A stretch of DNA of 64,000 nucleotides. Source: Phlyctochytrium arcticum (taxonomy: Eukaryota > Chytridiomycota > Chytridiomycetes > Chytridiales > Chytridiaceae). This document shows positions 22,746 to 64,000 of the stretch, in pieces (positions within the stretch are counted from its first letter, which is position 1; every line of letters starts with the position of its first letter). The position numbers and the translations under genes are program-made. The stretch covers positions 1,054,001 to 1,118,000 of the forward strand of contig JAHLKI010000004.1 in the NCBI GenBank assembly GCA_025602905.1, written 5' to 3'. The notes under the pieces were generated by a model, which worked only from the letters and a program-made list of their open reading frames with translations, was not told the origin of the DNA and did not search any database.

Positions 22746-22912
22746 ATTCTCAAAACGGCTTTTTATATCGGTTGCTAGAGATGCCCGCCCACGCCAGGAG
22801 GCCCGCTATTGTCAGTAGACGAGTGTTGTTGAGGGGCTTGCCACAAATCCTCATTGTGCGTTCCAATGGAAGTACTGTATGCTCTCTCCGAGCCAGTCCT
22901 CTAGTTGCAACA

Positions 22913-23197
22913 AGAACAATCGTTTGCGTATCTTATGGAATTGCACTCAAGCAAATGCCAAAATTCCAGACTTTACTTCCCTGGAAATCTACTGTGAGCC
23001 ATCGGAGTTGAGCGAGTCAATTACCCTGTGGTGCAGGCCGCGCATGTTGGTACGGTAATACAACTATATTCCATAACGTCAGATTGCAGACCGAGAGCAC
23101 AATGACCTGTGTACTGCCAAAGGAGTCAGTGGGCTGATGATTGCATATGGCAGAGCAGTTCTCACCGCAACTAGCTCAAAACATCCCTCAGCCCAAG
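22913..23197 (+). repeat. Inverted duplicate of the gene segment at 35950-36231
   Basis: About 285 bp nearly identical, in opposite orientation, to 35950-36231. It contains the same exon pieces (SELSESITLWCRPRML, an intervening short intron, then IADREH...TAKGVSGLMIAYGRAVLT). Sequence outside these limits differs, so only an internal gene segment was duplicated. Confidence 0.7.
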
Positions 23198-35527: not shown

Positions 35528-36359
35528 TTACCACTGCCCCCATTGCCAATACAGTAATGCCAATCCAAGATTGTCACAACTGATTGACGCTGCTGAGTAG
35601 TATTTGGCATACAGCTTGGCAGCCTGCAAGATGTGGGAATTGCCAGGACCAAAGATGTCCAGGAGTTCCTCGGCCGTCACTTTGGAGTTGTTGCCTTTGA
35701 AGCTGCGGTAGTGTTCGAGTTCTGCGGCGTCCTCTGCATTAAGTTGGAGCATTTCCTCCAATTTGTGGATTTTGTTTGATTGCCGAACGACCCTTCCCAG
35801 TAACACTACGAAACATTAAGATTCTTCTTTGCTGAATTGGTTTAATCTTGAAGAGCACTTACGTTGACTTGGATGGGGGGAGAAAAGACTTGCCCTTTCC
35901 ACATTGCCAGTCGAGTCTGGGCCAAAAAGCTGTATGGTCTGCACTACGGCTTGGGCTGAGGGTTGTTTTGAGCTAATTGCGGTGAGAACTGCTCTGCCAT
36001 ATGCAATCAGCAGCCCACTGACTCCTTCGGCAGTACACAGGTCCTTGTGCTCTCGGTCTGCAATCTGATGTTATGGAATTTAATTGTATTACTGTACCAA
36101 CATGCGCGGCCTGCACCACAGGGTAATTGACTCGCTCAACTCCGATGGTTCACAGTAGATTTCCATAAAAGTAAAGTCTGGAATTTTGGCATTTGCTTGA
36201 GGGCAATTCCATAAGATACGCAAAAGATTGTTCTTACTTGTCAGTAACAACATGAGCGCCTTCGTCTGCAGATACCAGGACAGCCTCAGGGAGGAACGGG
36301 GTGCTGTTGAAGAGGATAGTTGGGTTGGCAATTCCTGAGTCCGAGAGGACATAAGTCAT
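35528..36359 (-). CDS. Unrecognised multi-exon gene, part of which is duplicated at 22.9 kb
   Basis: ATG 36359 opens MTYVLSDSGIANPTILFNST, ending near a GTAAGA donor at about 36240. The next exon has KIPDFTFMEIYCEPSELSES and ITLWCRPRML. A very short intron follows, then IADREHKDLCTAEGVSGLLI and QAVVQTIQLFGPDSTG. A GTAAGT intron (about 35866-35806) leads to the last exon: SNKIHKLEEMLQLNAEDAAE, ELLDIFGPGNSHIL, ALLYWQWGQW-stop. The join after exon 1 is not phase-consistent in my model, so one boundary is wrong or the gene carries an indel. No family recognised. Confidence 0.4.
35950..36231 (-). repeat. Gene segment duplicated in inverted orientation at 22913-23197
   Basis: Near-identical to 22913-23197 over about 285 bp, exons and short intron included, so the copy was made at the DNA level rather than from spliced RNA. 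Confidence 0.7.
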
Positions 36360-47032: not shown

Positions 47033-49183
47033 TTAGACATTATTTAGAGCTTTTTTGTAGACTACGTTTCGTACATAGCCCTTGGGGCCCTGTAAATTCA
47101 AAATCTTGAGGAACTGCCAACCGGTAACTCGCGACACACCCACATAAAGTTGTCCATGCGCAAAGACCGGGGTAGGTAAGTATAGGCCGACATGTGTCAT
47201 GGTCTGTCCTTGGCTCTTGTTGATAGTCATTGCGTAGGCAACTCTAATGGGAAACTGTCGTCTTCTTAAGACAAAAGTTAAATCCCCTTCATTAGTGGTC
47301 ATGAGAGTTCTTGGTATGAAGACGGCACAGCCAACGTTGGTGCCCGTGAGAATTTTGGCTTCAATGACTCTATTGCCCAAACGTTCGACCATGAGGCGGG
47401 TGCCATTGCAAAGACCGAGCGAAGGATTGAGATTGCGCAAAAGAATGAGGGGAACTCCAATCTTCAGTCTCAGGTTGTGGTTTCCCAGACCACTCACCTT
47501 GACCGAGTTCAAGAATTCGACAGGTAAGCGAGCCTCTCGAAGTATTTCACCCTCCCGCTCCTCTGTGACACCTGTGTCAACAGAGTCTGCTCTCAGGTAT
47601 TCCCGGGCATCCCCAGGGAAACTGTCGAGCATCTTGTCATTGACTTCGTCCACATTGTCATTCTTTCGTGTGAGAATGCTTCGTTCCATCAGATAACGTG
47701 CGTCGCCAACATGATCGTGGTAGTCCGGGTATACGTGGTGTATCAATCCCTCGAGATCTTGCTCCTCTTCCGGCAAGCAAAGATCAAGGAGGATCTTGAT
47801 GAAATCACGTTCACCGCCCTCGGTTGCTGCGACTTTCGGAAGCGCGTTGTTTCCCACGTCCAGAACCCATTGAGCAAAGTCGGCAGCTTCGGGGGAGTCT
47901 GCGTTCACCACACTCATGTTGATATGCAAACGGAGGATGTGGACATGCGGCCAGAGAAGAGATCGAGGGAGAGATGCGGCTACAATGGCTTCTCTGCCGC
48001 CTCTGACAATGACTGGTAAGATTTGCCAAAAGTCACCGCCCATAGCGACCGTTTTGCCTCCAAAAGGTTGTGTTGAGTCCATGACATCCTGGAGCATTCG
48101 GTCAACGCACTCAAATGCGAAACGGTGCTGCATGGGGGCCTCAATCCAAATGATAAGATCCACAGCACGCAACAATTCCGCCTCAGGTCCTTGCTTCGTG
48201 ATTCGCAAACTTGACTGGTCTGTTAACTGAATTGGGATACCGAATCTCGAATGCGCAGTTTGACCTCCGGGTAAGAGGAGGGCGGCAATACCTGACGAAG
48301 CTACGGCAAGAACAATTTTTCCCTGTCCTCGGATCCGGGCCATCAATGTGTTCCAGACAAAAGTTTTCCCTGTACCTCCGCAGCCATCTACAAAAAAGAT
48401 CTTGCCGTGCCGGCCGGTGACTGAATCTAAGATTGTTTCATATGCGATACTTTGGTCGGCATTGAGTCGAGCTTGATTGGCAGCGGCTTCCTCCGTCAGA
48501 GCAGTTTGGTCGAAATTCAGCTGCTCTTGAATCAATCGGTTGGCGGCAGCAACAAAAGGCACAAAATTGGTAAGAGGCAGAATATAAAAGGCTAGAGATT
48601 TCCTGCGCGACACCAATATCTCCTGCAATTCATGCAACGCACGATTTCTCAGAGCATCTTCAGTCAGAATCAGTTCGTCATTGCCTGTCTCCCGTCGAGC
48701 TCGGTGCTGAAGATCATCATTTAGCGCTTCCCAATGACTATTCCACAAAGCTAAGGGATCGGTAACATCACAGAAAAGTAGCATGTAGGCAAACAAATCA
48801 CGCAGAAGCTTGCCCGACTGCCAAATTATAGCTTCCGCCAATGCCGTATGCCACTCGTCGTCATCTTCCAACAGACCTAGGGCAATGCATGAACACCGAG
48901 CACCGTCCGTAAACTTTGGAAGGAAGTTGCCCCTTTGATGGTAGTCAATAGCATTCTCAGGTAGCAACGTTCTCCAGCTGCCGGTGGTGCGTAGTAGAGT
49001 CGGCCGATTGTGAACCCCTGTTTGCGGATGGTCCATGCTTTCAACCGCGCATTCCACACAAACTTTTGGGGAAACTGACTGTAGGTCAGAGTGTTGGCCA
49101 ATTCCGCTTTGTTTGGGTCTGCGTTTGCCGTGAAATAGGCGTCCAACTGACTGTTCTGGAGAGGCCTCTCTACTACTGCGCAA
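47033..49183 (-). CDS. Helitron A helicase domain
   Basis: Provides 5'-3' DNA unwinding for rolling-circle transposition. Walker A is in FFVDGCGGTGKTFVWNTL; motifs further on include SSGIAALLLPGGQTAHS, a Walker B-like LIIWIEAPMQHRFAFE (IEAP where DEA is usual), VAMGGDFWQILPV (motif III) and the C-terminal AYAMTINKSQGQTMTHVGLY with VFAHGQLYVGVSRV (motifs V/VI). The first 80 codons of the frame read as shadow sequence; helicase coding joins here from the Rep frame by a shift near 48910. The frame then stays open to the end, the longest intact part of the element. Confidence 0.8.
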   Translation of the reverse strand: MRSSREASPEQSVGRLFHGKRRPKQSGIGQHSDLQSVSPKVCVECAVESMDHPQTGVHNRPTLLRTTGSWRTLLPENAIDYHQRGNFLPKFTDGARCSCIALGLLEDDDEWHTALAEAIIWQSGKLLRDLFAYMLLFCDVTDPLALWNSHWEALNDDLQHRARRETGNDELILTEDALRNRALHELQEILVSRRKSLAFYILPLTNFVPFVAAANRLIQEQLNFDQTALTEEAAANQARLNADQSIAYETILDSVTGRHGKIFFVDGCGGTGKTFVWNTLMARIRGQGKIVLAVASSGIAALLLPGGQTAHSRFGIPIQLTDQSSLRITKQGPEAELLRAVDLIIWIEAPMQHRFAFECVDRMLQDVMDSTQPFGGKTVAMGGDFWQILPVIVRGGREAIVAASLPRSLLWPHVHILRLHINMSVVNADSPEAADFAQWVLDVGNNALPKVAATEGGERDFIKILLDLCLPEEEQDLEGLIHHVYPDYHDHVGDARYLMERSILTRKNDNVDEVNDKMLDSFPGDAREYLRADSVDTGVTEEREGEILREARLPVEFLNSVKVSGLGNHNLRLKIGVPLILLRNLNPSLGLCNGTRLMVERLGNRVIEAKILTGTNVGCAVFIPRTLMTTNEGDLTFVLRRRQFPIRVAYAMTINKSQGQTMTHVGLYLPTPVFAHGQLYVGVSRVTGWQFLKILNLQGPKGYVRNVVYKKALNNV

Positions 49184-50115
49184 ATATCTGAGTTCTGGGG
49201 AAACATTACCAATTGCTCATTTGGTAAGTGGTAGGGATGTCGTTCTACGGCTGGAGAACGCTCGTGGAGGCCAAAATCGAACAGTCGCCAGCTGGTTTCG
49301 GAAGCAGAGACATATCGGCAATCAAGATACTGTTTAATCTCATTCGTGGCCTCTGGCGGATTTGAGGAACGTTCAATGCTGGCCCCCGCCTGCGCAAGAA
49401 CTACTGTCGCCTTGTCATGTCCCTTGTACACATACTTGAACAGGTACTTAACAGCCCCCACATTGCTAACGATCTCTACGTTGATGTGGGCGTCGTATTT
49501 CGTGCCAAGGTACAGGTTGTGGGGAACGACCCATTGATTGCCAAGGGCAATGCCGTTGACCTCAACGGTTTCTCCATTGTTCCTCCGGCGGTATTTGGGG
49601 TATCTGTCAGTGTCGACGGAGGTCGCATCATGATAGGCATGAGGAAATCCTTTAGAGCACTTGCCATTTTCCATGCATTTGGCGCTAGGGAAACTTGGAC
49701 CACACGGTCCATGCATCATGCAAGTGGATACTGTTGCAAATGCCAAAGGATGTTTGACGCTGTCCGGAAGCTCAGCGCTAATCAGGCGATCTATGTCCTC
49801 AACTGAGCGCAGCTTAGAACCCACCGCAAACCAAATAAGACTATGGGAATGAGGCAGACCGCGCTTTTGGAACTCAATGACGCGCAACCTGGCAATGGTC
49901 TCGCCAAAGATTTTCTTTTTGTGCAGATCGGCATGAAGTTGCTTCTGCCGCAATTGAAAAGCCCTTGAGGTGAGATCAGGACGGTCGGTTACGGTCTGGC
50001 CGGGCAGTAACTATTCTGTAATCTCGGGCCATTTGGGGTTACAGGTAAAGGTCAAAAAAATATCAGGACGGCCAAACTGAGCGCAAATTCCCATAGCGTC
50101 CCGGTAGTTTTGCAT
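48877..50115 (-). pseudogene. Helitron A Rep nuclease region
   Basis: Rep motif 1 is in DIFLTFTCNPKWPEIT, just before an in-frame TAG near 49990. Motif 2, the metal-binding HxH, is in IEFQKRGLPHSHSLIW-type sequence. Motif 3 carries both tyrosines in AVKYLFKYVYKGHD. The substrate-binding regions between them are well preserved (CMENGKCSKGFPHAYHDAT; YRRRNNGETV). Rep nicks one strand and forms the covalent 5' link during rolling-circle transfer. The frame ends at 48877 out of register with the helicase. Confidence 0.75.
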
Positions 50116-50957
50116 CATATTCCGCGGGCTGCCAGTGAATGAGGAAGGTAGGATGACTCGACGCCCGACGGAATGCCGTCGAAATCCCCGGCCATAACTG
50201 CGTCTTGGAGGCCTTTGTACACGTCGGCGCGTAGTTTTTCCTGGTTGAGCTTGATAAAGTTGAGACGGTTTTGCTCAAGCGATGCGTAACTACCGACGAT
50301 AAATTGCTGAAGAAGACGACCCGACCTCATCAACGCAACTCCATCCGTCGATCGCACTTGCAAGCGGTAGGCCGAGAACTCCCACATTGATACGCGCGTT
50401 CTCGTGGTTTTAGGTTGAAGGTCATTAGCAACCTCCCCTCCAGCTGGTTCAGCCTCGGGGACATCGGCCGGAGCTTCAACATCGTCAGAATAGAGAATGT
50501 TTGGGTGCCACCCATCCTCCCCTCGCGGGAAGAGAAGCGGATATCCGAGGGCATAGTAACCCACATATGACCCGAATATACGCTTGAGCCGCCCGCCAAT
50601 GTGTTGAATAACAATATCCCGTTGATTTACATCTTGAGAACCATCTCCAATCATCAGAGCCGCTACCTCATCAGCGGTGGGTAGATTGTATGTACGTCCA
50701 TCCCGCGCCTGTTTTGCCAGTAACCGCATTGTGACGTTAACGGGAGTTTCCGCACTATCCCGCAACTGCTCGTGGGCTGTCCTAAACGCGCGCGCATGCG
50801 GGTTCACCTCCTTCAGCATCGCATGCAAGTTTTGCAGAAGAGGCTCATCTGATTCCGGGATGACAATGGGCCGATTAGAGCCACCAATCTCGGTATCGCA
50901 GATGTAGAACTGAGAAAAAAGGGGAACTTCTCCAGGAGTTGGAAGCAAAGATCCCAT
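50115..50957 (-). pseudogene. Helitron A central region (Helitron_like_N)
   Basis: Begins MGSLLPTPGEVPLFSQFYIC with the conserved DTEIG, continues through QRDIVIQHIGGRLKRIFGSY and YYALGYPLLFPRGEDGWHPN, and then NRLNFIKLNQEKLRADVYKG. These blocks are standard for the region before Rep motif 1. The frame is lost just before RVILPSSFTGSPRNMMQNY, which continues in another frame. Confidence 0.7.
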
Positions 50958-51655
50958 AAGATGGCGAACCTCTCCTTGAATGCGAAAAGATGGGGGCTAG
51001 TCACTCGCTCGTCGATCTTGGCCCCCATGGAGGTAAAGCTGAGCGCCGTGTTAAATTTGCGGACGTTTTTGCGGAATTTTTTTGCTGAGGAACTGCTGGA
51101 GAGATAAAGATCTGCCAACATTGGAGGGGTTTCGGGTAAAGATGGCAGTCGGACCTTGCCACGCTGGCAGCATAGTGAAAACAACGGCTCTCCATTGGCT
51201 GACTTCCCGACAGACTCTTGTGGCCACATGCGCGCATTGCAATTGGTACAGATAGCGTTCTGGGGGCCACAGTGAAGTCTCGAAGGTGCCCAGTGGTCGT
51301 TGTTGGTGAATGGCCTTAGTCCTACTGGTAATGCCAGCAGATGAGCCTGAATGGTGCGAGGGGCCGGATTACGGCGGGGTTGGGCAATGACCCGGCGGCG
51401 AACGTCGTGGTGAGGGAGGGAGTTGGTAAGATTGGCGCGAGGTGGGAGGTTGGTGATGTCGCCAAAGACAACTCGAGCGGCGCGTACCGCGCTCCCATGC
51501 TGCGCAATGAGTCCTTGGACACTGTCTTGGCGCATTCGAGTGGATGGGCCTGCGAGAGAGTCCTGCAGTTGGGCATCAAGGGAAGCGGCAGCACTTCCAT
51601 GTTGAGCAATGAGCGCCCGAGCACGCTCTGTGATGGCTCTCATGACGGACAACAT
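50813..51655 (-). pseudogene. Helitron A N-terminal zinc-binding region
   Basis: ATG 51655. The first 60 residues contain an imperfect internal duplication (ALIAQHGSA twice). A destruction-box-like RVVFGDITN follows at 51449-51475. The zinc-binding part reads LHCGPQNAICTNCNARMWPQ, then LFSLCCQRGKVRLPSLPETP and FRKNVRKFNTALSFTSMGAK, matching the Helitron N-terminal signature. A one-base shift near 50995 separates it from the next segment. Confidence 0.7.
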
Positions 51656-51679
51656 GATGATAGATCTGCTCAAGGAGTT

Positions 51680-52295
51680 AGTCGCTGAGCTTGGGGTAAA
51701 GTAAAGAAACGTACAAAGTGAATAGCAGCAAATCGTATACTGGACTCAGGGTGATTACTTGGAGAGAAAATTGTTTTTATTGAGAAGAAAACTCTGGAGA
51801 GGACACAGAAGAAAACTCGGAAGAAAAGCGCTGTGTCTATGTTACTGAGCCAAACGCGCTCTGCTATCTACAACGCCATGCCAAAACGCGACGCGTTCCG
51901 CGTTTTCCCACATTTACCTATATTTGGCTACTCGGCCTGCGGCCTCGAGGTCACAGGATTTACACGGGAAATGGAAACCTTGCTTTAATGTATAGAATAC
52001 TTCTGCATTCTTTCCCACACATGCTTTGTACCATACCACTACTTAGATTGTCGGTCGGCAAACACCTACAAAAGAGGTAGACAATCAAAACAAAACACTC
52101 AAAAGGTTCTGACAAAGGTAATTTATTGATTGGTTCCGTAAGTACGTTGAATTTATTGGCGCAATGTCTACATGTGCAGCCCCAAACTTTGTGTGCTAAA
52201 TGGACAGCGAATGTGAGTTATTCATGAAGGGAGGGAGAGCGCCCTGACTTAAAAAGTGAGTGTACTTACCGAAAGGTGTCGGACACTCTTCTCAC
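51680..52295. other. Spacer between Helitron A and the small Cys-protein gene
   Basis: No gene recognised. A short inverted repeat AAAACGCG...CGCGTTTT lies near 51890-51912. The 5' end of Helitron A should fall here but no TC terminus can be fixed. Confidence 0.3.
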
Positions 52296-54565: not shown

Positions 54566-54570
54566 AGAAT

Positions 54571-54652
54571 GTGATAGTGCATAGCATAGTTATTATACCG
54601 AATTTTAGTATATACTAAAATTCGGTATAATAACTATGCAATGCACTATCAC
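54571..54652. repeat. 82-bp near-perfect palindrome
   Basis: Arms 54571-54610 and 54613-54652 are complementary over 40 bp with one mismatch, around a TA centre (GAATTTTAGTA|TA|TACTAAAATTC). The outer bases extend it further: GGATCCCCC on the left against a G run then GTTCC on the right. It could form a long cruciform or hairpin. It resembles a tiny inverted-repeat element. Confidence 0.85.
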
Positions 54653-54669
54653 AGGGGGGGGGGTTCCAA

Positions 54670-55470
54670 CTATGGGCCAACTATGCCCAACTATGCGGCA
54701 ACTGTGAAGCCCGCTATTTGACCTTATTATACGGCCGCTTCTCCACTATGTGACCTTATGATAAGGTCGCCTCCATCAAACATCGAGCCATCTTACACAT
54801 CATGAATCATCCCTCTCCATATTTCATCGAGTGGTGCCGCTTGTCACGGCAAGGGACTTCCGTCATTTAAACACATCAATTTATCCCTTCCATCTAATCA
54901 AAAACAGCAAATACAAATACTACATGCTAAATACAAAATACAAATACTAAACACTAATCCTACGTCTTTTTGCATTGGGCTCTCCATCCTCCTCTTCATC
55001 TGTCAATATCTTGTCATCAACAACAGCCGGTTCTACATGCACTTTCTTCTTCACTTCTACATTCTTCCACCATACTTCGCTTTCCTTCAAATACATATCT
55101 CAAATGTCCATGGGCAGTGCTGACATATCCACTCGCATACAAGTCCGTAGTATAAACAACAAAGCCTTTGTTTCCTCTCCGTCATCCACACTCATCTCTT
55201 TCAACTCCAATCGCTTGAATTCCCGCTTGATGTATTCCAGAGCCGAAGCATGTTTTTTGACTACACGATCGGCTTTCTTGAACTCCTCTGATTCATTCAA
55301 GTTTATGAACTCCAGCACGCAGTCTTTCAATAAATCCATTTTTTCCCTTTTCTTTTCGAGTGGTTGTCGAATGGTGATGATGATGATTCGGATTATGGAG
55401 CGGCCTTATTACGGGACTTTCAATCCTTTATAACATTTTCTGTTATCGATATCGATATCGATATCATCCC
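54670..55470. other. Spacer with CCAACTATG words and short palindromes
   Basis: CCAACTATG/CCCAACTATG repeats at 54667-54700 and GACCTTATGATAAGGTC is a 17-bp palindrome near 54751. A (GATATC) run lies at about 55445-55467. No gene recognised. Confidence 0.35.
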
Positions 55471-55857: not shown

Positions 55858-56036
55858 CCCTCTTCATCAATCCCCGATTCACTCATTCTTCCATTCTATC
55901 CCTACAAAGTATCGAGTCGTCTGTGTTCGTTTCTCCGATACTACCGCTCTCAGTTCTTTGTAAAATGTGTTTCGCTCACAAAGATTTGTGGATCCAACAT
56001 TATCGGCCAGATACTTATCATATACAAGTTTGACCC

Positions 56037-56052
56037 CAGCGCTTCCGCGCTG
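56037..56052. other. Hairpin CAGCGC-TTCC-GCGCTG near the 3' end of Helitron B
   Basis: A perfect 6-bp stem with a 4-base loop, about 150 bases beyond the helicase stop in element orientation. Helitron 3' ends carry such hairpins just before CTRR, but the bases after it (GGGGTCAAACTTG) do not give a clear CTRR, so the end is only a candidate. Confidence 0.3.
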
Positions 56053-56202
56053 TTGTCAAAGACACAGAAAACACAAAAGAAGAAGACAGGACAAACGGAG
56101 ACAGGAGAGAAAAAACATGTAGAAATGAACAGAAGAACAGAGGTACTAATAAGCTAGAATAAGTGGTCTAACAGTAAGTTGAGTTTTCTATAAGTTGATA
56201 AG

Positions 56203-57397
56203 TTAGGTTAAGTTGTCAAGAAGTTCAGTAAAGACAACATTATGTGTAAATGGAGGAGCGTCCTTCTTGAATAAGAGTAGGATATCAGACGAGGCCCTTA
56301 CGCGGGACAAAGCCGTATAGAGCTGACCGTGTGCAAAAACAGAAGTGCGAAGATCTACAACGATCCGGTTCAGCGTCAGTCCTTGGCAACTGTTGAATGT
56401 TGAAGCATATCCCAGGCGTAAAGGGAATTGTTTCCGCTTGATGGAGTAGGTGGAGCTTGTCGGTTTGAAAATGAAAACAAATCTGGGGATAGAGTACGTG
56501 GATGCCCGGTGATTGGGATTTGGATTGGGAAGGGAAACGGTGACAGTGTGGGGGAACATGGCAAGAATCTTGACTCTAGCATTTTTGACCAAGCCGAGCT
56601 CAACAGAAATGTTACGCATCAAAGTAGCTACCATTCCCACTTTGAAAGACAAGCAGTGACTCGGAACACCAGGAAAACGGAGTGCGAAATGTAATCCGGA
56701 ATACAGATGGGATGATCATCAGCCAAGTGTTCATTTTCAACGACATCATTGAAAGAATAGTAGTGTTTGGGCTCCCCGGGGAAGGCATCAAAAAGCAAAT
56801 CGTTAAATTCGTCGACGTGGATGTTAAGGCAAGAATGAAAGGAGCATTGGGAGGGAGCGGCGGAGGTGGAAACGTCGGGTGAAAGGGATGGGAAAAGGAA
56901 CTGTTTACATTCCTCTATATCATCAGTGTGGGCCAAGAAGGACAGGTCCAGATTTTCGGAAGGAGAAACGCCGACATGGTCCAAAAAACGATCGAATCGT
57001 TTGTCATTTGCGGCGCGAAAGGTTTGTCGAAGGTGGGAGATTTGGAAAAGGGGCCACAAATGGGAGTTCCGCACACTCGATGCAACGACCTGAGCCCTGC
57101 CGGCATTAGGTACAACAGGAGCAACCTGACGCCAATTGCCAACCCCAGTGAATGCGCAGCCTCCAAACGGCAAATCCAAGCCCTTGATTGATCTCATCAG
57201 GTTATCGGCGCACTCGACAACGGGCCCGAACCCATGGGAAGTTCATCCCAAGTAATGAGCGTTGCGGCCTTCAACAGAGCTGCCCGGTTCGTCCCCAGCC
57301 CAACCGAGGAACACAAATTCCCACCAGAGTCGGCCTCGATGGGAATCTTGAACAAAGAATAAGCGGTGCGACCCCGTTCGTAGTTCGAAGCGGCCAT
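56203..57397 (-). pseudogene. Helitron B helicase, C-terminal half in three frames
   Basis: Frame 57397-57197 has NYERGRTAYSLFKIPIEADS and ATLITWDELPMGSGP (Walker B-like WDE). Frame 57197-56628 continues GGCAFTGVGNWRQVAPVVPN (motif III) and the hinge to DHPICIPDYISHS. Frame 56652-56203 has FKVGMVATLMRNISVELGLV, LRLGYASTFNSCQGLTLNRI and VFAHGQLYTALSRVRASSDI (motifs V/VI). Two frameshifts separate them, so no helicase can be made. The invariant Lys usual in the NKSQGQT motif is replaced (FNSCQGLT). Confidence 0.75.
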
Positions 57398-57414
57398 TGC
57401 CGTGGTAGCAACGA

Positions 57415-58419
57415 TTAGAACAATGTGCCCAGCAGCCCGCAGATGGTTGGCGATGAGATTAAGTAGGTACTGTATGTCTTCCCGGTTCCAGCTTTGCCTT
57501 GCAGGAAATGAAGATTATTTGCGGAGCTGTCGTTCACTCCAGTGACTATCCGATCAAAAAAATCGCGCTGCTCGCCATTCAAAGTTGGAAGGGCGAGGGA
57601 AACCTCACGCAGGAGGTCAGGCTGACGTCCCTCAAAAGCGTCTCGCTCGTTTTCCAAGTCACGAGAAACAATATTGGGTAGTGGTAGGCCGAAGTCAGCG
57701 CATGTTTGGGAGCTTGCAGCGAAGTGCTTGTTAATGTCCAGGAGAGCGAGATTGTAGCATTTTCGAACATTTCGGTGATGCAAGTCCAGATAGTCAGCCG
57801 CCAAATCATCCTTGAAACGCATCCAGAGTGATGGAGCAGGAGCACCGTTCAAAACCAACTGTCCGTAAAGGAAGCGCAGCTGAGAAGGCAAGCGCAAATC
57901 GGCAATGGCATCCTCCATGGCCACTGTGGGTTCCGAGTCGTTGCTAAAAAGATTCAGGGCGTAGGCGGCCTCTTGGAAGGTAGGATAAATGACATTGGCA
58001 ACTGTGCGAAGGTTCTCATACGAACGGCCGGGCATAACTTGTAGAATGGAACGAAGATAGAAAAGTTCCCCCAATTTGGCACCAATGGTCTGAATCCTGC
58101 ACACATGAGGAGATTGAGATGTACGGGTAGAGATGACCCATCGAGAGCCAGGGTGTGGGGACTCTAGATACTGGTTGTTGGAAAGCGCTTCTCCAGACCA
58201 AGGCCTGTGGGTAAACCTCTCGTAATAATCCAGATAGGTGATGTTGTCAAAAAGGTCCTCTGGTGGGCGGAATAGTAGGTAGCGAGTCAGGGAGGAAAAG
58301 GTGGAAGACTCTTTGTTAGAGCCGTACTTATAGAATTTCGCACCCGCCAAATGACAGACTAAGGTTTCAACCGCCGGAATTTTCAAGAAACAGAAAACTG
58401 AAAAATCCGCCAAGCGCAC
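57415..58419 (-). CDS. Helitron B Rep-helicase linker and Walker A
   Basis: Continues from the Rep frame with RYLLFRPPEDLFDNITYLDY and YLESPHPGSRWVISTRTSQS, then LRSILQVMPGRSYENLRTVA and the linker to ALPTLNGEQRDFFDRIVTGV. The P-loop is in LHFLQGKAGTGKTYSTYLI. The frame is lost about ten codons later. Confidence 0.75.
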   Translation of the reverse strand: MRLADFSVFCFLKIPAVETLVCHLAGAKFYKYGSNKESSTFSSLTRYLLFRPPEDLFDNITYLDYYERFTHRPWSGEALSNNQYLESPHPGSRWVISTRTSQSPHVCRIQTIGAKLGELFYLRSILQVMPGRSYENLRTVANVIYPTFQEAAYALNLFSNDSEPTVAMEDAIADLRLPSQLRFLYGQLVLNGAPAPSLWMRFKDDLAADYLDLHHRNVRKCYNLALLDINKHFAASSQTCADFGLPLPNIVSRDLENERDAFEGRQPDLLREVSLALPTLNGEQRDFFDRIVTGVNDSSANNLHFLQGKAGTGKTYSTYLISSPTICGLLGTLF

Positions 58420-60389
58420 TCAGGGGCGGAAAGGTAACGGCCATTGAGGTAATCGTCAATTTCATCAGTGGGCCTTGCGCAGTCGGATGAAATGTTGTAC
58501 TTGACTCTGTCCGGGCCTTTGTATAAATATTTGTACAGGTACATAAACACGTGCACTGTGGAGGCAATTTCGACATTGACGTGGCAGTCCAATTCCAACA
58601 GAAGCAGCGGTGAGTGGGGAACGACGCAAGCGTCCGCGACAGACCGGCGACGGTACTGAACGTACCCTCGATCATCGACCCAGGTAACCGGATTAACAGG
58701 TTTCGGATACCCGTAGATGCATTTACCATCCCTGAGGCATCTCGAAGAATGGGAGGAACTGTGGATCATGAACTGTTTGACCTTCGCCGCGAGTAGGACA
58801 CAGGCAGGGTCGGTACCTGTGGGAAGCTCAGCTGAGATGACGGAGTTGATGGAGGAGGGAGGTAGTTTGGGGTTGCACTTTAAGATGATGTGTGCGTGGG
58901 GAAGACCCCGCTTTTGGAACTCGACGACCCAGACAATGTAGACGACTTGGCCAAAGACAGTCCGCAGAAGAGAGATGCATCTGGAAAGTCTTGATTTGAA
59001 AACACGTACCACCAATGCAGGCTGGTCGAACGCTGTTTGGCCGGGGAGCAACTTCGAAGTAATCTCCGGCCATTTGGGGTTGGCGGTCATTGTCACAAAG
59101 AAGGAGGGAGGGCCGAATTTTCGAGCCAGAGTTAAAGCGCAGGCCACCTGGTCACTGCACCATTTCTGAGAGCCGTGAAAGGATTTGGGAAGGAAGAGAT
59201 GTGATTCTTCCTGGGGTCCACCATCTACATCATCGTTCATAGAATGGCGATTGTTGAAGATGAAATTGAGTTTTTGGTCCTCAGTCCTGGAGAACATGTC
59301 CACCAGGTATTCGCCGGCCAGACGGCCCAACAGAGAAAAGCGCGGTTCTTGCAATAGTCTGATGCAATACCAAATAATCTGAGAAAACCCGAAGGAATTG
59401 TCCATTGTCCAGCCAGGGGTGCCATGGGGGAAGAGAATCGGGTACTGCAATGGTTCGTAATGAGAGCTCAAAATTGGCACGAATGTGGGAGTGGCATCAG
59501 AGTGCATCCATACTACAATGTTGCGATCCACCATAGTAGCCGAGTCGGGAGTGCCAATGACAGCCGCGATTTCAGAGTTGTGAGTGTCTTCATTTAAATG
59601 AATTGAGTAATCCGGACGGAGTTGCTGGACGTTGCCCGCAACATGAACGGCACGCGAAAATTGGGACACGTATGGATTGACATCGTCCAGAAGGTTTTCA
59701 AAGACCGCCACAATGTTTGAAGGCACATTGTAGTTGCTGGCGACAGAGTAGCGCTCTTCCGCATCATACAGAAACCAGTGCATTGAATGCCCCGGAGAAG
59801 CGAGCGGTAGCATGCGGTGGTAAACCCTCCCAGATATGCACACTGAAGAAGGACCCCGGAAATTTGCGAATTTGCCCGTAACACCAATTGCCGTGAAGGA
59901 AAAGAGGTTATTAAGGCGGCGGGACATTTGTGAGACGTTGGCGGTAGTCAGTACGTTGGCGATAGGTGGAGGATAGGGAGGGAGACGTGGAAGAGTCCAC
60001 CGACCAGCGTTGCAACAGAAAGCTTTCCGTTCCGAGGACAGCAGGAAGACACCGCAGAATGAGTAGGGCAACACATTCCAGACAGCGTTGTGGCGCGAAG
60101 GTAAATGAAGTACACAATGTGCGGACCACCATTGGGGAATGCGAGCTGGAGAATGACATTGGACCTGGATGAAGTATACTTTAAATCTGGAGGTGTGCAG
60201 TGAAGAAGATGAGTAATATTTACGTGCGCAGTAGATATGTGGGAAGGCGCATGGATCCCGGAAGAGGAAAGCGAATGAGGAGAATGGGCGGCAAAGGCCG
60301 ACGGAGGCGAAACAGAGGTTTGCAAGGAAGATGTAGACTGTAACAGAGTCAGTGATGCGCTGCAGACCGTGGGGAGGAAACAAATACAT
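58383..60389 (-). CDS. Helitron B N-terminal and Rep nuclease region
   Basis: The body from about 60130 down carries the zinc-type region (KAFCCNAGRWTLPRLPPYPP), SSVCISGRVYHRMLPLASPG and DDVNPYVSQFSRAVHV. Rep motif 1 is FFVTMTANPKWPEI, motif 2 FQKRGLPHAHIILKC (HxH), and motif 3 FMYLYKYLYKGPDRV with both tyrosines. It ends PTDEIDDYLNGRYLSAPECA. The first 80 codons are in a doubtful frame; a Ser-rich alternative frame with ATG 60496 and an intron is more likely. This is the longest intact part of the element. Confidence 0.75.
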   Translation of the reverse strand: MYLFPPHGLQRITDSVTVYIFLANLCFASVGLCRPFSSFAFLFRDPCAFPHIYCARKYYSSSSLHTSRFKVYFIQVQCHSPARIPQWWSAHCVLHLPSRHNAVWNVLPYSFCGVFLLSSERKAFCCNAGRWTLPRLPPYPPPIANVLTTANVSQMSRRLNNLFSFTAIGVTGKFANFRGPSSVCISGRVYHRMLPLASPGHSMHWFLYDAEERYSVASNYNVPSNIVAVFENLLDDVNPYVSQFSRAVHVAGNVQQLRPDYSIHLNEDTHNSEIAAVIGTPDSATMVDRNIVVWMHSDATPTFVPILSSHYEPLQYPILFPHGTPGWTMDNSFGFSQIIWYCIRLLQEPRFSLLGRLAGEYLVDMFSRTEDQKLNFIFNNRHSMNDDVDGGPQEESHLFLPKSFHGSQKWCSDQVACALTLARKFGPPSFFVTMTANPKWPEITSKLLPGQTAFDQPALVVRVFKSRLSRCISLLRTVFGQVVYIVWVVEFQKRGLPHAHIILKCNPKLPPSSINSVISAELPTGTDPACVLLAAKVKQFMIHSSSHSSRCLRDGKCIYGYPKPVNPVTWVDDRGYVQYRRRSVADACVVPHSPLLLLELDCHVNVEIASTVHVFMYLYKYLYKGPDRVKYNISSDCARPTDEIDDYLNGRYLSAPECAWRIFQFSVS

Positions 60390-60629
60390 ACGGACTGAAG
60401 GACAGATGAAATCATGCGTTGTTTCTTCAAACGGCGTGTTTCGGAAGCCCTACGATGGATTTCACGGCGCTTGGCAAGGTAAGTTTGGGCGTCCATGGTG
60501 GGGGGAGGAGGGGGGGGAAGGGGGGGCTACAGATGGATGCGGGGGAAGAAGAAGGGAGTGGCCATTTTAAAGGGTTCAGGGAACAGAGAGGCCGTAACTG
60601 GACAGTTAAGCATGAAAGAAAAAATAACA

Positions 60630-61670
60630 GAATGAACCGCAGCGCAGATAGGTACATCGGAAAGTAAACAGCCACCCATTCAAAATGAACATGGACGTGA
60701 CAGTGAAACGCTCATAAAATTTACATGGAAACAACAGCGAAACGCCCATCAAATTTATGAGACATGAAAGAAATGGCGTTGAGAAAAATGCAATATAAAG
60801 AAACAAACGCGAACGCCAAGTGGGTCAATGTGTTAAGTCTTCCAAAGAATGAGGAGGAAGATAGAATTGAAGAAGGTAATCAGATACCGGCAAACACGCG
60901 TCGCACGGTTAGTGGGAAATTGACGGAAACATCCCCCAAGTGGTAGAGAAAGATATTACAAACAGAGTGGACAGAAGCATTCAGAAAGCAGATTTGGGCA
61001 ATAAGATAAAAAGCAAGGAAGAAGGAAATGAGAGGAGAGGAGCGAGATAGATAATTAGGACGAATGGAAACACAACAGATGGTATGAAGGTCAAGGGAAT
61101 TGGACGACAACCATATTGAAGTTTGAAAAGGAGTAAAGAGCAGAGATAAGATCGGCAATGTATAGACGTAGTGTGTTTATGAGAATGAAATAGTTTCAGG
61201 AAAAATGCAATAGAAATAAACATGAAAGAATGAAACGCAGCGGAGATAGGATCATCGGAAAGTAAAGAGCCACAAAACCAAAGTGAATAAGGAGAGAACG
61301 CCTAAAAGAGCCACACATTCAACGTGAATATGGAGCGAACGCCCATCAAATCAAGGGGCGTGAAGGAAATGGTGTTGGGAAAAATGCAGTAGAAAGAAAC
61401 ATAACAGAATGAAACGCGGCGGAGATAGGTTCATCTAAAGTAAAGAGCCACACATTCAAATCAAATCAATGGGCGTGAAGTAGTGGGGAAAAATGCAATA
61501 GAAGGAATGGAACCCGAACGCCAAGTGGGTCAATGTCATCAAAAGAATGAGGAGGAAGATAGAAATGAAGAAGGTAATCAGATACCGGCTCACACGCGTG
61601 AAGGCGTTGCAGATTTGGTGGGAAATTGACCGAAACAGCCCCCAAGTGGTAAAGAAAGAAACAACAAACA
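60630..61670. repeat. Diverged direct repeats upstream of the AT-hook gene
   Basis: A ~180-bp block (GAACGCCAAGTGGGTCAATG...GAGGAGGAAGATAGAA...GATACCGGC...CCCCAAGTGGTA) occurs at about 60780-60960 and again at 61483-61665. A shorter block (GAATGAAACGCAGCGGAGAT...AAGTAAAGAGCCACA) occurs at about 60630, 61228 and 61407. The array fills the space between the divergent Helitron B and the gene at 61814. Confidence 0.65.
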
Positions 61671-61707
61671 GAGTCATGAAGAAATGAAGGGGAGGGACGG
61701 AAAAAGG

Positions 61708-61715
61708 TATAAAAA
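61708..61715 (+). promoter_or_regulatory. TATA box of the AT-hook protein gene
   Basis: AAAGGTATAAAAAGAAGG lies about 100 bases before ATG 61814, followed by a C/A-rich leader (CAACAATCACCGCAAAGCACC). Spacing suits a core promoter. Confidence 0.5.
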
Positions 61716-61813
61716 GAAGGCACTGTCGGGCGGCCCTCCTAGCGAAACATCTTCAACAAAAGACAGTAACAACAATCACCGCAAAGCACCACTTGAAGCA
61801 CACACAACTCGGA

Positions 61814-62671
61814 ATGTACACCATCACTAAAACATGTTTTGTCACGGACATCATCAAGATCGACCGACTCCCATACGACATTAGTGTCATCATCCCCATC
61901 GGAAACGTGGAAACCGCCGAAGTCGTTGTCAATGTATTCGCATGGCGCCAGCTCCAGAAACCTATCATTGGGGACAACTACTATCTGATAGCCAGCGCGG
62001 CATATGAGCCCAACACCTTCAAAGCAAGCGCGTTCAGCGGCAGCAAGATTTGTATGGATGACTACGACAGCGGCATATTAGATGCCGTGGCAGCAACCTT
62101 CAACCTCACAGGGAAAGTGTCCGGAGTACAGGGGGACACAGTTGTTGTCCAGTACAACGTATGGCATGACGTGGATCGGCGGGAGATAGAGCGGCGCTGC
62201 ACCATCAGCATGTCGGGAAAGTACTGGGAAAAAAGGAAGAACAAAGTGAAGGCAGGGCTGATCGTGAACGTGATTGGAACCTTGGGGGACGGAGGGGTGT
62301 TGAAATCGGAGCTGTTCTGGATCCCCACTGGGCAGTCAGATGTGGACCGGCTGATCGTGGCACCGGCGACACCAACCTCGACGGCGGGAGAAGCGGTGGC
62401 ATCTTACTTTGGAAAAAGGCTCAGTCCCAAAAGATTGAGGACGGAAGAGGAGGCCAACACGGGCATGGTGCAGGTGGAGGACAACATGTTCGCGACAGCA
62501 ACCAGCAGCCAAGCCGGCCCCAGTGCTGTCGGCGAGGACTTGGAGGAACCGGTGACACCACCTCGAAGGAAATGCGGCCGCCCTAAGGGATCGAAGAACC
62601 GGCCGAAGGGAACCGGGAAAGGCAAAGGGAAAGCCGTAGCGGAGACAGATGACGAAGACAGTGATATGTAA
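61814..62671 (+). CDS. Intact beta-rich protein with C-terminal AT-hook (285 aa)
   Basis: ATG 61814 is preferred over the upstream in-frame TTG. The N-terminal 170 residues look beta-rich in two blocks: YDISVIIPIGNVETAEVVVN with NVFAWRQLQKPIIGDNYYLI, and TGKVSGVQGDTVVVQYNVWH with KAGLIVNVIGTLGDGGVLKS ELFWIP. The second block resembles an OB-fold, a low-confidence reading. The C-terminus is polar with an AT-hook-like RKCGRPKGSKNRPKG and a basic GKGKGK stretch before an acidic end. It could bind single-stranded or AT-rich DNA. It is divergent from Helitron B and convergent (280 bp apart) with the D5-like helicase. Unlike its neighbours it has no lesion. Confidence 0.55.
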   Translation: MYTITKTCFVTDIIKIDRLPYDISVIIPIGNVETAEVVVNVFAWRQLQKPIIGDNYYLIASAAYEPNTFKASAFSGSKICMDDYDSGILDAVAATFNLTGKVSGVQGDTVVVQYNVWHDVDRREIERRCTISMSGKYWEKRKNKVKAGLIVNVIGTLGDGGVLKSELFWIPTGQSDVDRLIVAPATPTSTAGEAVASYFGKRLSPKRLRTEEEANTGMVQVEDNMFATATSSQAGPSAVGEDLEEPVTPPRRKCGRPKGSKNRPKGTGKGKGKAVAETDDEDSDM

Positions 62672-62951
62672 ATAGTTCTGAAATATTTGAAATACATGTT
62701 CATAAGAATGAGATAATTACAATTTCGTAGCAAAGCTTTTACAAAGTCGATACAGGTCCATGTATACAGGCAAAGGGCAGCGGGGATGGGAATGACAGGA
62801 GCAAAGGTGCAGGTTAAGGAGCTGTGTACGGTGAAATGCAGTGTCGAAACGGGCCAAGTCCGATAGGCCAAGTCCGATGCAGATGAAGCAAGAGGGGAAG
62901 GAAAAAGCAGAACCGAGGACACGGAATACGGGGTGAAGGTAGGGTTCCCAG

Positions 62952-64000
62952 TCACGGGGGTTCATTCTGAAACATTTTGAAGTTTAAATCTGGTTTTCTG
63001 ATAACAGTTCTTTCAATTCTGTCCTCGGGGTTGTTTGTCAATTGGTAAGTCATTTTGAACCATTTCGCAACTGTTAAAGAATTCACCAGATTCTTCTTCG
63101 TGTACTCATTGACCTCCTCTGGAACTTTTATCGAGAGATCCAAACTTCCATCTTTCTTTACAAACTTTAATTTAAAGAATCTCATTAGTATGAGAATAAA
63201 TGTGTCTCGATATTCTGGAGAGGAGAAAAGTCTTTTAAGGTTTGGATCAACTTGACGAACAATTTGTTCATCTTCACCATCATCCATTTGGACGGCCTCT
63301 TCTTCATCCTCTTCTTCATCATTACATTCTGCAAATGTAACGGTGTAAGGGATCATTTTCGCCGAAAGAGCAATAGCAGTATCAATACGGTCGAATTTTG
63401 GATCTTAGTTTGTTTGAATATGGAGAGCGCCAGTCATAGGGAACGTAAGAGGTTTGCCGTGAAGTGTCCGAACCGGATAAGGGTCATTTCCTCGAATGAT
63501 TTTAATTTCATCAGAAGCAAAGGATTGACCAACTTGAGGTTCAGAAGTAGCGAGGTATCTCTTACCAAAACAGTTAAACATTTGGGCATTTGGGGCATCA
63601 CGTTGACCTTTGCTGCGAGTAGTAATACAGTATTTTCAGGTTTGATAAAGTTGAAATAAGTCCCAAAAGTAGATGTAATTAGCGTGGTTTCAGCACCCTT
63701 CCCCATTACGACCGCCTCCTTTTTGTACGTAAAAGGACTCTTCGACAACCTTTCCAAATAAACATCGTACAAGTTGAGCGATACGATAGTCTCGTATTTT
63801 ATCGCATGGAAAGATGCTTGCAAAGAATGACGAGATTGCCTCTCGAATCTCTGTAACTTCTCCCCCGCTAGGGAAAGGATAGCCGCAAGTGTGCAAAATG
63901 TAATCTTTGGCTTCAAAAGGACGAAACGCTCCTTTGACAAGGTCGTAAACGCCATCGGTGAATGCGAACAGATGAGGATTTGAAAGAAAGAGTTCGATAC
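62952..64000 (-). pseudogene. D5-like SF3 helicase/primase, C-terminal part, decayed, cut by window edge
   Basis: Read leftwards from the right edge, a frame gives NPHLFAFTDGVYDLVKGAFR and DYILHTCGYPF, the pre-helicase D5_N-type block, then IAQLVRCLFGKVVEESFYV. The P-loop region starts GRNGEG at about 63700 and shifts frame inside the Walker A motif, so the Lys-Ser/Thr is not readable. A second shift near 63610 restores the frame for FGKRYLATSEPQ (Walker B region) and GALHIQTN (SF3 sensor Asn). A TAA at about 63405 follows, then DPKFDRIDTAIALSAKMIPY and the C-terminal VPEEVNEYTKKNLVNS block to 62952. This order is known in large DNA virus and virus-like element D5 proteins. The N-terminal primase part would lie beyond 64000. 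Confidence 0.7.

Follow-up and report, generated by a model that had tools for sequence, protein, structure and literature searches.

In the window analyzed here, a 64,000-nucleotide stretch of the genome of the chytrid Phlyctochytrium arcticum (contig JAHLKI010000004.1, called C4 below; C4 coordinates are window coordinates plus 1,054,000), we found what is very probably the 3' half of a broken PolA-S3H replicase gene of an endogenous polinton-like virus (PLV). In the element to which this gene belongs, genes for a capsid, a packaging ATPase, an rve integrase, and a fiber-like protein accompany it; a palindrome of the element's own type stands at both ends, and a Helitron transposon split the element at a later time. 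A sequence-only reading of the window had described positions 62,952 to 64,000 as an old relic of a D5-like SF3 primase-helicase in a fungal transposon region, perhaps at the edge of a larger virus-like element to the right.

The replicase gene lies on the minus strand and runs past the window edge to about 65,384 (C4:1119384), with the D5/SF3 stretch forming its C-terminal part. The features that define it and the insertion within it are as follows.

63003 to 64000, minus strand: portion of the replicase that encodes the D5-like SF3 helicase, from motifs, a D5_N match, and paralogue alignment.
56023 to 63002, minus strand: Helitron of about 7.0 kb within the replicase gene; the C3 element has one at another position, with 97.5% identity to it.
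58383 to 60449, minus strand: Helitron Rep open reading frame (ORF) (Helitron_like_N, E 3e-35).
55885 to 56025, minus strand: C-terminal 47 codons of the replicase, severed by the Helitron (tblastn, 94% to the C4b paralogue).

All of the D5/SF3 motifs that the sequence-only reading named are present on the minus strand: NPHLFAFTDGVYDL in an ORF at 63,690-65,384 that extends beyond the window, GKRYLATSEP and GALHIQTN in one at 63,405-63,635, and VPEEVNEYT in one at 62,952-63,404. These three ORFs share the same frame, and the stretch from about 63,630 to about 63,735 is read in another, which fits the two compensating frame changes reported earlier; the reported stop is the TAA at 63,405-63,407, and a straight-through reading of the copy meets two TGA and one TAA. 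In a profile search the window copy matched D5_N (PF08706) at E 4.4e-8, and it is 80% identical to a stop-free 847-aa paralogue over residues 2-802 (1408 bits), a helicase similarity that, judged by sequence, is far above chance. The start of the feature at 62,952 has to be given up, however: helicase homology ends at 63,003-63,007, because the Helitron begins there, and the last 47 residues are encoded beyond the insertion, at 55,885-56,025. The transposon thus does adjoin the gene, as had been proposed, but it sits in the virus gene itself, and the C4b paralogue retains the uninterrupted Helitron target site. We rejected both a cellular helicase and a Helitron helicase as the identity of this copy; the adjoining Helitron has its own Rep and, by look, its own helicase-like ORFs.

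Since the replicase copy is broken in several ways, it is a fossil, and the window copy of the element is dead. The term relic is therefore apt for this copy, although not for its family. The P. arcticum genome holds 12 near-full replicase copies, 10 of which have no stop, and the three window-family copies that could be compared are under purifying selection (a Prim-Pol pair, C4a/C8, was saturated and gave no synonymous divergence, dS).

The family profile matches C962R of African swine fever virus (ASFV; E 1.5e-15) and poxvirus D5 (E 3.4e-13), which bears out the D5-like SF3 assignment, and profile matches and the structure model both place D5_N plus the SF3 ATPase in the C-terminal part of the replicase. 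The primase half of the proposed primase-helicase fared differently. A structure model of one paralogue resembles a family A DNA polymerase fold at residues 1-280, with a C962R/D5-type SF3 helicase behind it, although the model is poor overall, and the polymerase assignment calls for caution. No Pfam polymerase match to the replicase was found; candidates for the two catalytic aspartates are an HDID motif, in 7/7, and an FDG motif, in 8/8 of the alignment rows that cover those columns. Together, the model suggests that the replicase is a PolA-S3H, that is, a family A polymerase and a D5-like SF3 helicase joined in one protein, and it looks more like such a fusion than like a primase-helicase. 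No relative turned up in IMG/VR when it was scanned with the replicase, with the capsid, and with three alignments, and therefore no environmental virus was available for comparison.

Extending the contig beyond 64000 brought out the larger integrated element that had been suspected to the right. The integrase, capsid, ATPase, and fiber-like protein all lie within 18 kb of the window end, and we found neither a helicase of cellular or Helitron type lacking an SF3 profile nor a flank of ordinary genes only. The D5-like stretch does extend rightward into this element but is not its edge, as the left border lies farther left, at 54,570. The ends and genes are listed from left to right.

54570 to 54653, no strand: 84-bp terminal palindrome in which 41 of 42 pairs are complementary, the outermost left end of the element.
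54654 to 54709, no strand: subterminal CCAACTATG-type repeats, common to most of the other ends examined.
55100 to 55405, minus strand: small ORF of 101 aa close to the end; the C3 and C4b elements have similar ORFs beside the same end, and the C3 version has no Pfam match.
C4:1121716-1122564, plus strand: 283-aa ORF.
C4:1123044-1124146, minus strand: broken rve integrase region (rve, E 7.7e-12).
C4:1124607-1125896, minus strand: double jelly-roll (DJR) capsid, 430 aa, from fold comparison of a model.
C4:1126739-1127230, minus strand: candidate minor capsid, no Pfam match.
C4:1127202-1127966, plus strand: A32-type (FtsK/HerA) packaging ATPase (PF04665 above cut-off, E 4.1e-9).
C4:1129977-1135645, plus strand: fiber-like region, with a sub-threshold Adeno_shaft match.

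The 38-bp core of the window palindrome occurs at two places in the 31.5-Mb genome at up to 3 mismatches, namely in the window and at C4:1158985-1159022, and near the second of these, at C4:1157617-1157715, a piece of the 3' end of the replicase recurs in mirrored orientation. The shared core and the mirrored fragment point, at the level of sequence, to inverted repeats, and they place the right end near C4:1,159,040 and the left end at C4 1,108,570, inside the window; the element is therefore about 50 kb long including inserts. A comparison of 50-56 kb with 78-90 kb (continued window numbering) gave inverted repeats of 13 bp at most, the right end lying farther out. The C4b element is collinear with the window element.

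An rve integrase, an A32 ATPase, and a DJR capsid are also what a Polinton/Maverick in the strict sense, replicating through a protein-primed PolB, would carry, and PolB elements do occur in the genome, among them one (C3:280-295 kb) that encodes an integrase, an ATPase, and a capsid-like protein of its own. We nevertheless regard this identity as very improbable for the window element, since a six-frame search placed 0 of the 14 PolB matches in the genome between its two ends, where a D5-type replicase stands instead. The C3 element just mentioned (C3:280279-294904) is a PolB-type element whose capsid-like protein scores 31% to the window element's capsid, and it also encodes a protein resembling avian adenovirus fiber (PF06536, E 2.7e-10).

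The capsid raises a second alternative, namely that the element is a piece of a large nucleocytoplasmic virus (NCLDV), a group whose D5 and DJR capsid look similar. The capsid model (predicted local distance difference test score, pLDDT, 81) fold-matches the capsid of Paramecium bursaria chlorella virus 1 (PBCV-1) at E 3.3e-17, PBCV-1 and iridovirus capsids being the best fold matches, and the helicase has its matches among ASFV and pox proteins. The capsids of Sputnik and mavirus match as well; searched by sequence in the PDB, the capsid profile gave no match, and fold comparison alone did. Against an NCLDV origin, which we likewise judge to be very improbable, stand the rve integrase and the adenovirus-like fiber, the inner length of 18.7-50.3 kb in the six capsid-bearing stretches bracketed by palindromes, and the relatives of the capsid by sequence, which are mostly chytrid proteins with one named MELD virus hexon. 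The capsid is 58-67% identical to proteins of Spizellomyces punctatus and Powellomyces (67% to SPPG_02195). In a tree of 18 capsid rows, which left out 7 of the 23 capsid hits (P0021, P0022, P0023, P0032, P0038, P0042, and P0043), the nearest rows by path are from S. punctatus, in a placement that lacks resolution.

We then have, in our favored reading, an element whose body is that of a PLV and whose ends look like hairpin-capable termini. Two search patterns, each fixing only the outer 12 bases per side, found 28 and 19 palindromes genome-wide, and reversed-pattern controls found 0. We laid out 33 ends, comprising all 28 of the first pattern, 2 of the 19 of the second, and three local ends (the window, L035, and L004) that were chosen for being palindromes and whose pairing is thus partly a matter of selection. 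Thirty-one of these ends are perfect palindromes, and the other two (the window and C54) have one unpaired position. They fall into 10 sequence types of 56-102 bp; across five 60-mer types seven positions vary, with pairing retained every time. Five further palindromes of the second pattern, seen in full or on one strand, included four perfect ones and one, C2:4794, with one unpaired position; one of the five is only 46 bp long. The retention of perfect pairing across diverged palindrome types suggests that replication copies one arm from the other.

Whether these palindromes are viral ends can be weighed against the rival idea that they are an independent mobile repeat, resembling a miniature inverted-repeat transposable element (MITE), or a duplicated palindromic target. 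One 62-mer is common to 12 of the 33 ends, so that a single type is identical across otherwise diverged elements, which speaks for the rival idea. Yet subterminal tandem repeats lie directly inside 31 of the 33 ends (29 of AACTAT type and 2 of AGCTAT type, with neither in C54 and C13), and the outer flanks are unlike between ends, except for C1 and C42, which are identical. Moreover, a palindrome lies 1.1-1.7 kb beyond the 3' end of the gene in 9 of the 12 near-full replicase copies, the two patterns having caught none at the C1, C16, and C22 copies. Of four end pairs inspected for target duplication, two have identical 5-mers outside (TTGTG and CTGAC), one agrees at 4/5 positions, and one has none; this last pair combines palindromes of two types and is perhaps no real pair.

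Fourteen stretches are bracketed by two neighboring palindromes. Six contain a capsid match, and in five of the six there is an ATPase match too, where the bracketing used 33 of the 64 capsid matches and the window-family part of 51 replicase matches, and the remaining capsid matches, checked by eye, lay in no bracketed stretch. Several observations weigh against the palindromes as viral ends, or at least against a general rule. Eight of the 14 bracketed stretches have neither a capsid nor an ATPase match, four of them (C5, C28, C17, and C13) having a D5-type match, and these eight may be decayed copies or chance pairs. For 15 of the 37 D5_N matches, the two patterns caught a palindrome no more than 6 kb away; the other 22 have no exact-pattern palindrome within that distance, and the window copy is among them because the Helitron puts its palindrome 9.3 kb off. 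Two of the 14 PolB matches lie within 6 kb of a palindrome, and the one in C17, abutting PolB coding sequence, looks like the end of another insert. Scanned in 10-kb pieces, two regions with D5 and PolB genes (C26:375001-415000 and C10:1-50000) yielded no palindrome whose arms reach 22 bp. Given this partial distribution, the palindromes mark some lineages and not all. On balance we consider a MITE-like repeat or duplicated target unlikely, and we retain the reading of the palindromes as viral ends.

An active relative of the window element would replicate its linear DNA with the PolA-S3H enzyme, its A32 ATPase would package this DNA into a fiber-bearing DJR capsid, and its rve integrase would insert it into host chromosomes, leaving a 5-bp duplication outside the palindromes. 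The palindromes would then be hairpin-type replication ends that replace protein priming. More tentatively, and with rather less than even confidence, we propose that chytrid PLVs with PolA-S3H dropped protein priming in favor of hairpin-forming palindromic ends. Each end would fold back to prime synthesis or would form a closed telomere; every round would copy one arm from the other, so that the palindromes would stay perfect while their sequence drifts between elements; and the opened, filled-in form of the end would be the substrate that the rve integrase inserts. Poxvirus, ASFV, and parvovirus-type DNA ends likewise have hairpin-capable terminal palindromes adjoining tandem repeats, and pox and ASFV have a D5/C962R-type helicase, whereas the palindromes described here are known only as integrated duplex, and no protelomerase was found (PF16684, 0 matches, with a control positive in one genome). 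Pox_A22, a second candidate for a resolving enzyme, also gave 0 matches, with its control silent as well, and the commoner palindrome pattern had 0 matches in IMG/VR.

The closest known systems share parts of this architecture. Bellas and Sommaruga 2021 (PMC7805220) describe one integrated PLV in S. punctatus and a group named after that fungus, 52% of whose members have a chitinase gene. That group and the chytrid MELD virus, a Powellomyces record so named among our capsid relatives, resemble the window element in being integrated in chytrids with the capsid identities given above; by a word search of its main text, PMC7805220 does not mention terminal palindromes. The TV-Pol/PolA-S3H of Sputnik and its relatives (PMC2579912) has the same N-terminal family A polymerase core and C-terminal D5-like helicase, but in the window element such a replicase is tied to an rve integrase, an A32 ATPase, and a fiber-like gene, all within the genome of a fungus. 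Polintons/Mavericks and adintoviruses (PMC11071308) have the same rve integrase, A32-type ATPase, and DJR capsid, and their short target duplication has a likely counterpart in the 5-mers outside some end pairs of the window element's relatives; unlike them, the window element lacks a protein-primed PolB, and its ends are TGTSA with terminal palindromes. Neither "palindrom-" nor "hairpin" occurs anywhere in the main texts of five papers on PLVs and virophages (PMC12220804, PMC7805220, PMC10120064, PMC12721341, and PMC8547959), and in openly licensed literature, at the level of titles and abstract beginnings, there was no report of terminal palindromes in chytrid or fungal PLVs. A possible precedent is the virophage DSLV3, for which a review (PMC10301787) gives palindromic repeats at both ends. 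What is new here is the presence of long palindromes at the ends of many such elements.

The same Helitron lies inside two virus elements at different sites, in the window at 56023-63002 and at C3:264019-270921. One of its ends has a hairpin, CAGCGC-GGAA-GCGCTG, without CTRR, the canonical Helitron end. A companion ORF of 327 aa at 61688-62671 on the plus strand has no Pfam match, and by eye similar ORFs lie near other Helitron-like ORFs at C17:71358 and C4:1138081. To the left of the element, ORFs at window positions 47033-51745 resemble, by look, a second Helitron (helicase-like and Rep-like pieces), and a pair of 286-bp inverted repeats, 95% identical, occupies 22912-23197 and 35950-36235. 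Rfam at gathering threshold returned nothing in the window.

Beyond the window element, the genome has 37 D5_N, 38 A32, 14 PolB, and 64 capsid matches, counts that include fragments and are not numbers of elements. Its integrated relatives have three replicase types (PolA-S3H, Prim-Pol-D5, and PolB) and related capsid genes. At C4:875379-925880, two related elements stand head to head, 0.6 kb apart, with differing palindrome types and differing replicases (Prim-Pol-D5 and PolA-S3H family). A SET-domain protein (L011:1879-2526, E 7e-11) lies within the C4a element, and proteins encoded beside elements, at L010:1790-2221 and L012:8360-8980, may have N-termini of Crinkler type, by their look.

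DNA viruses of fungi are barely known. Because three replicase types occur with related capsid genes in one genome, a single host offers the chance to study how closely related viruses swap replicases. If the proposed mechanism is true, a pox/parvovirus-like end mechanism has been joined to a polinton-like virus body. If the palindromes are replication ends, they would show how a polinton-like virus can do without a protein-primed polymerase, and they would bear on how replication modules moved among DJR-capsid viruses.
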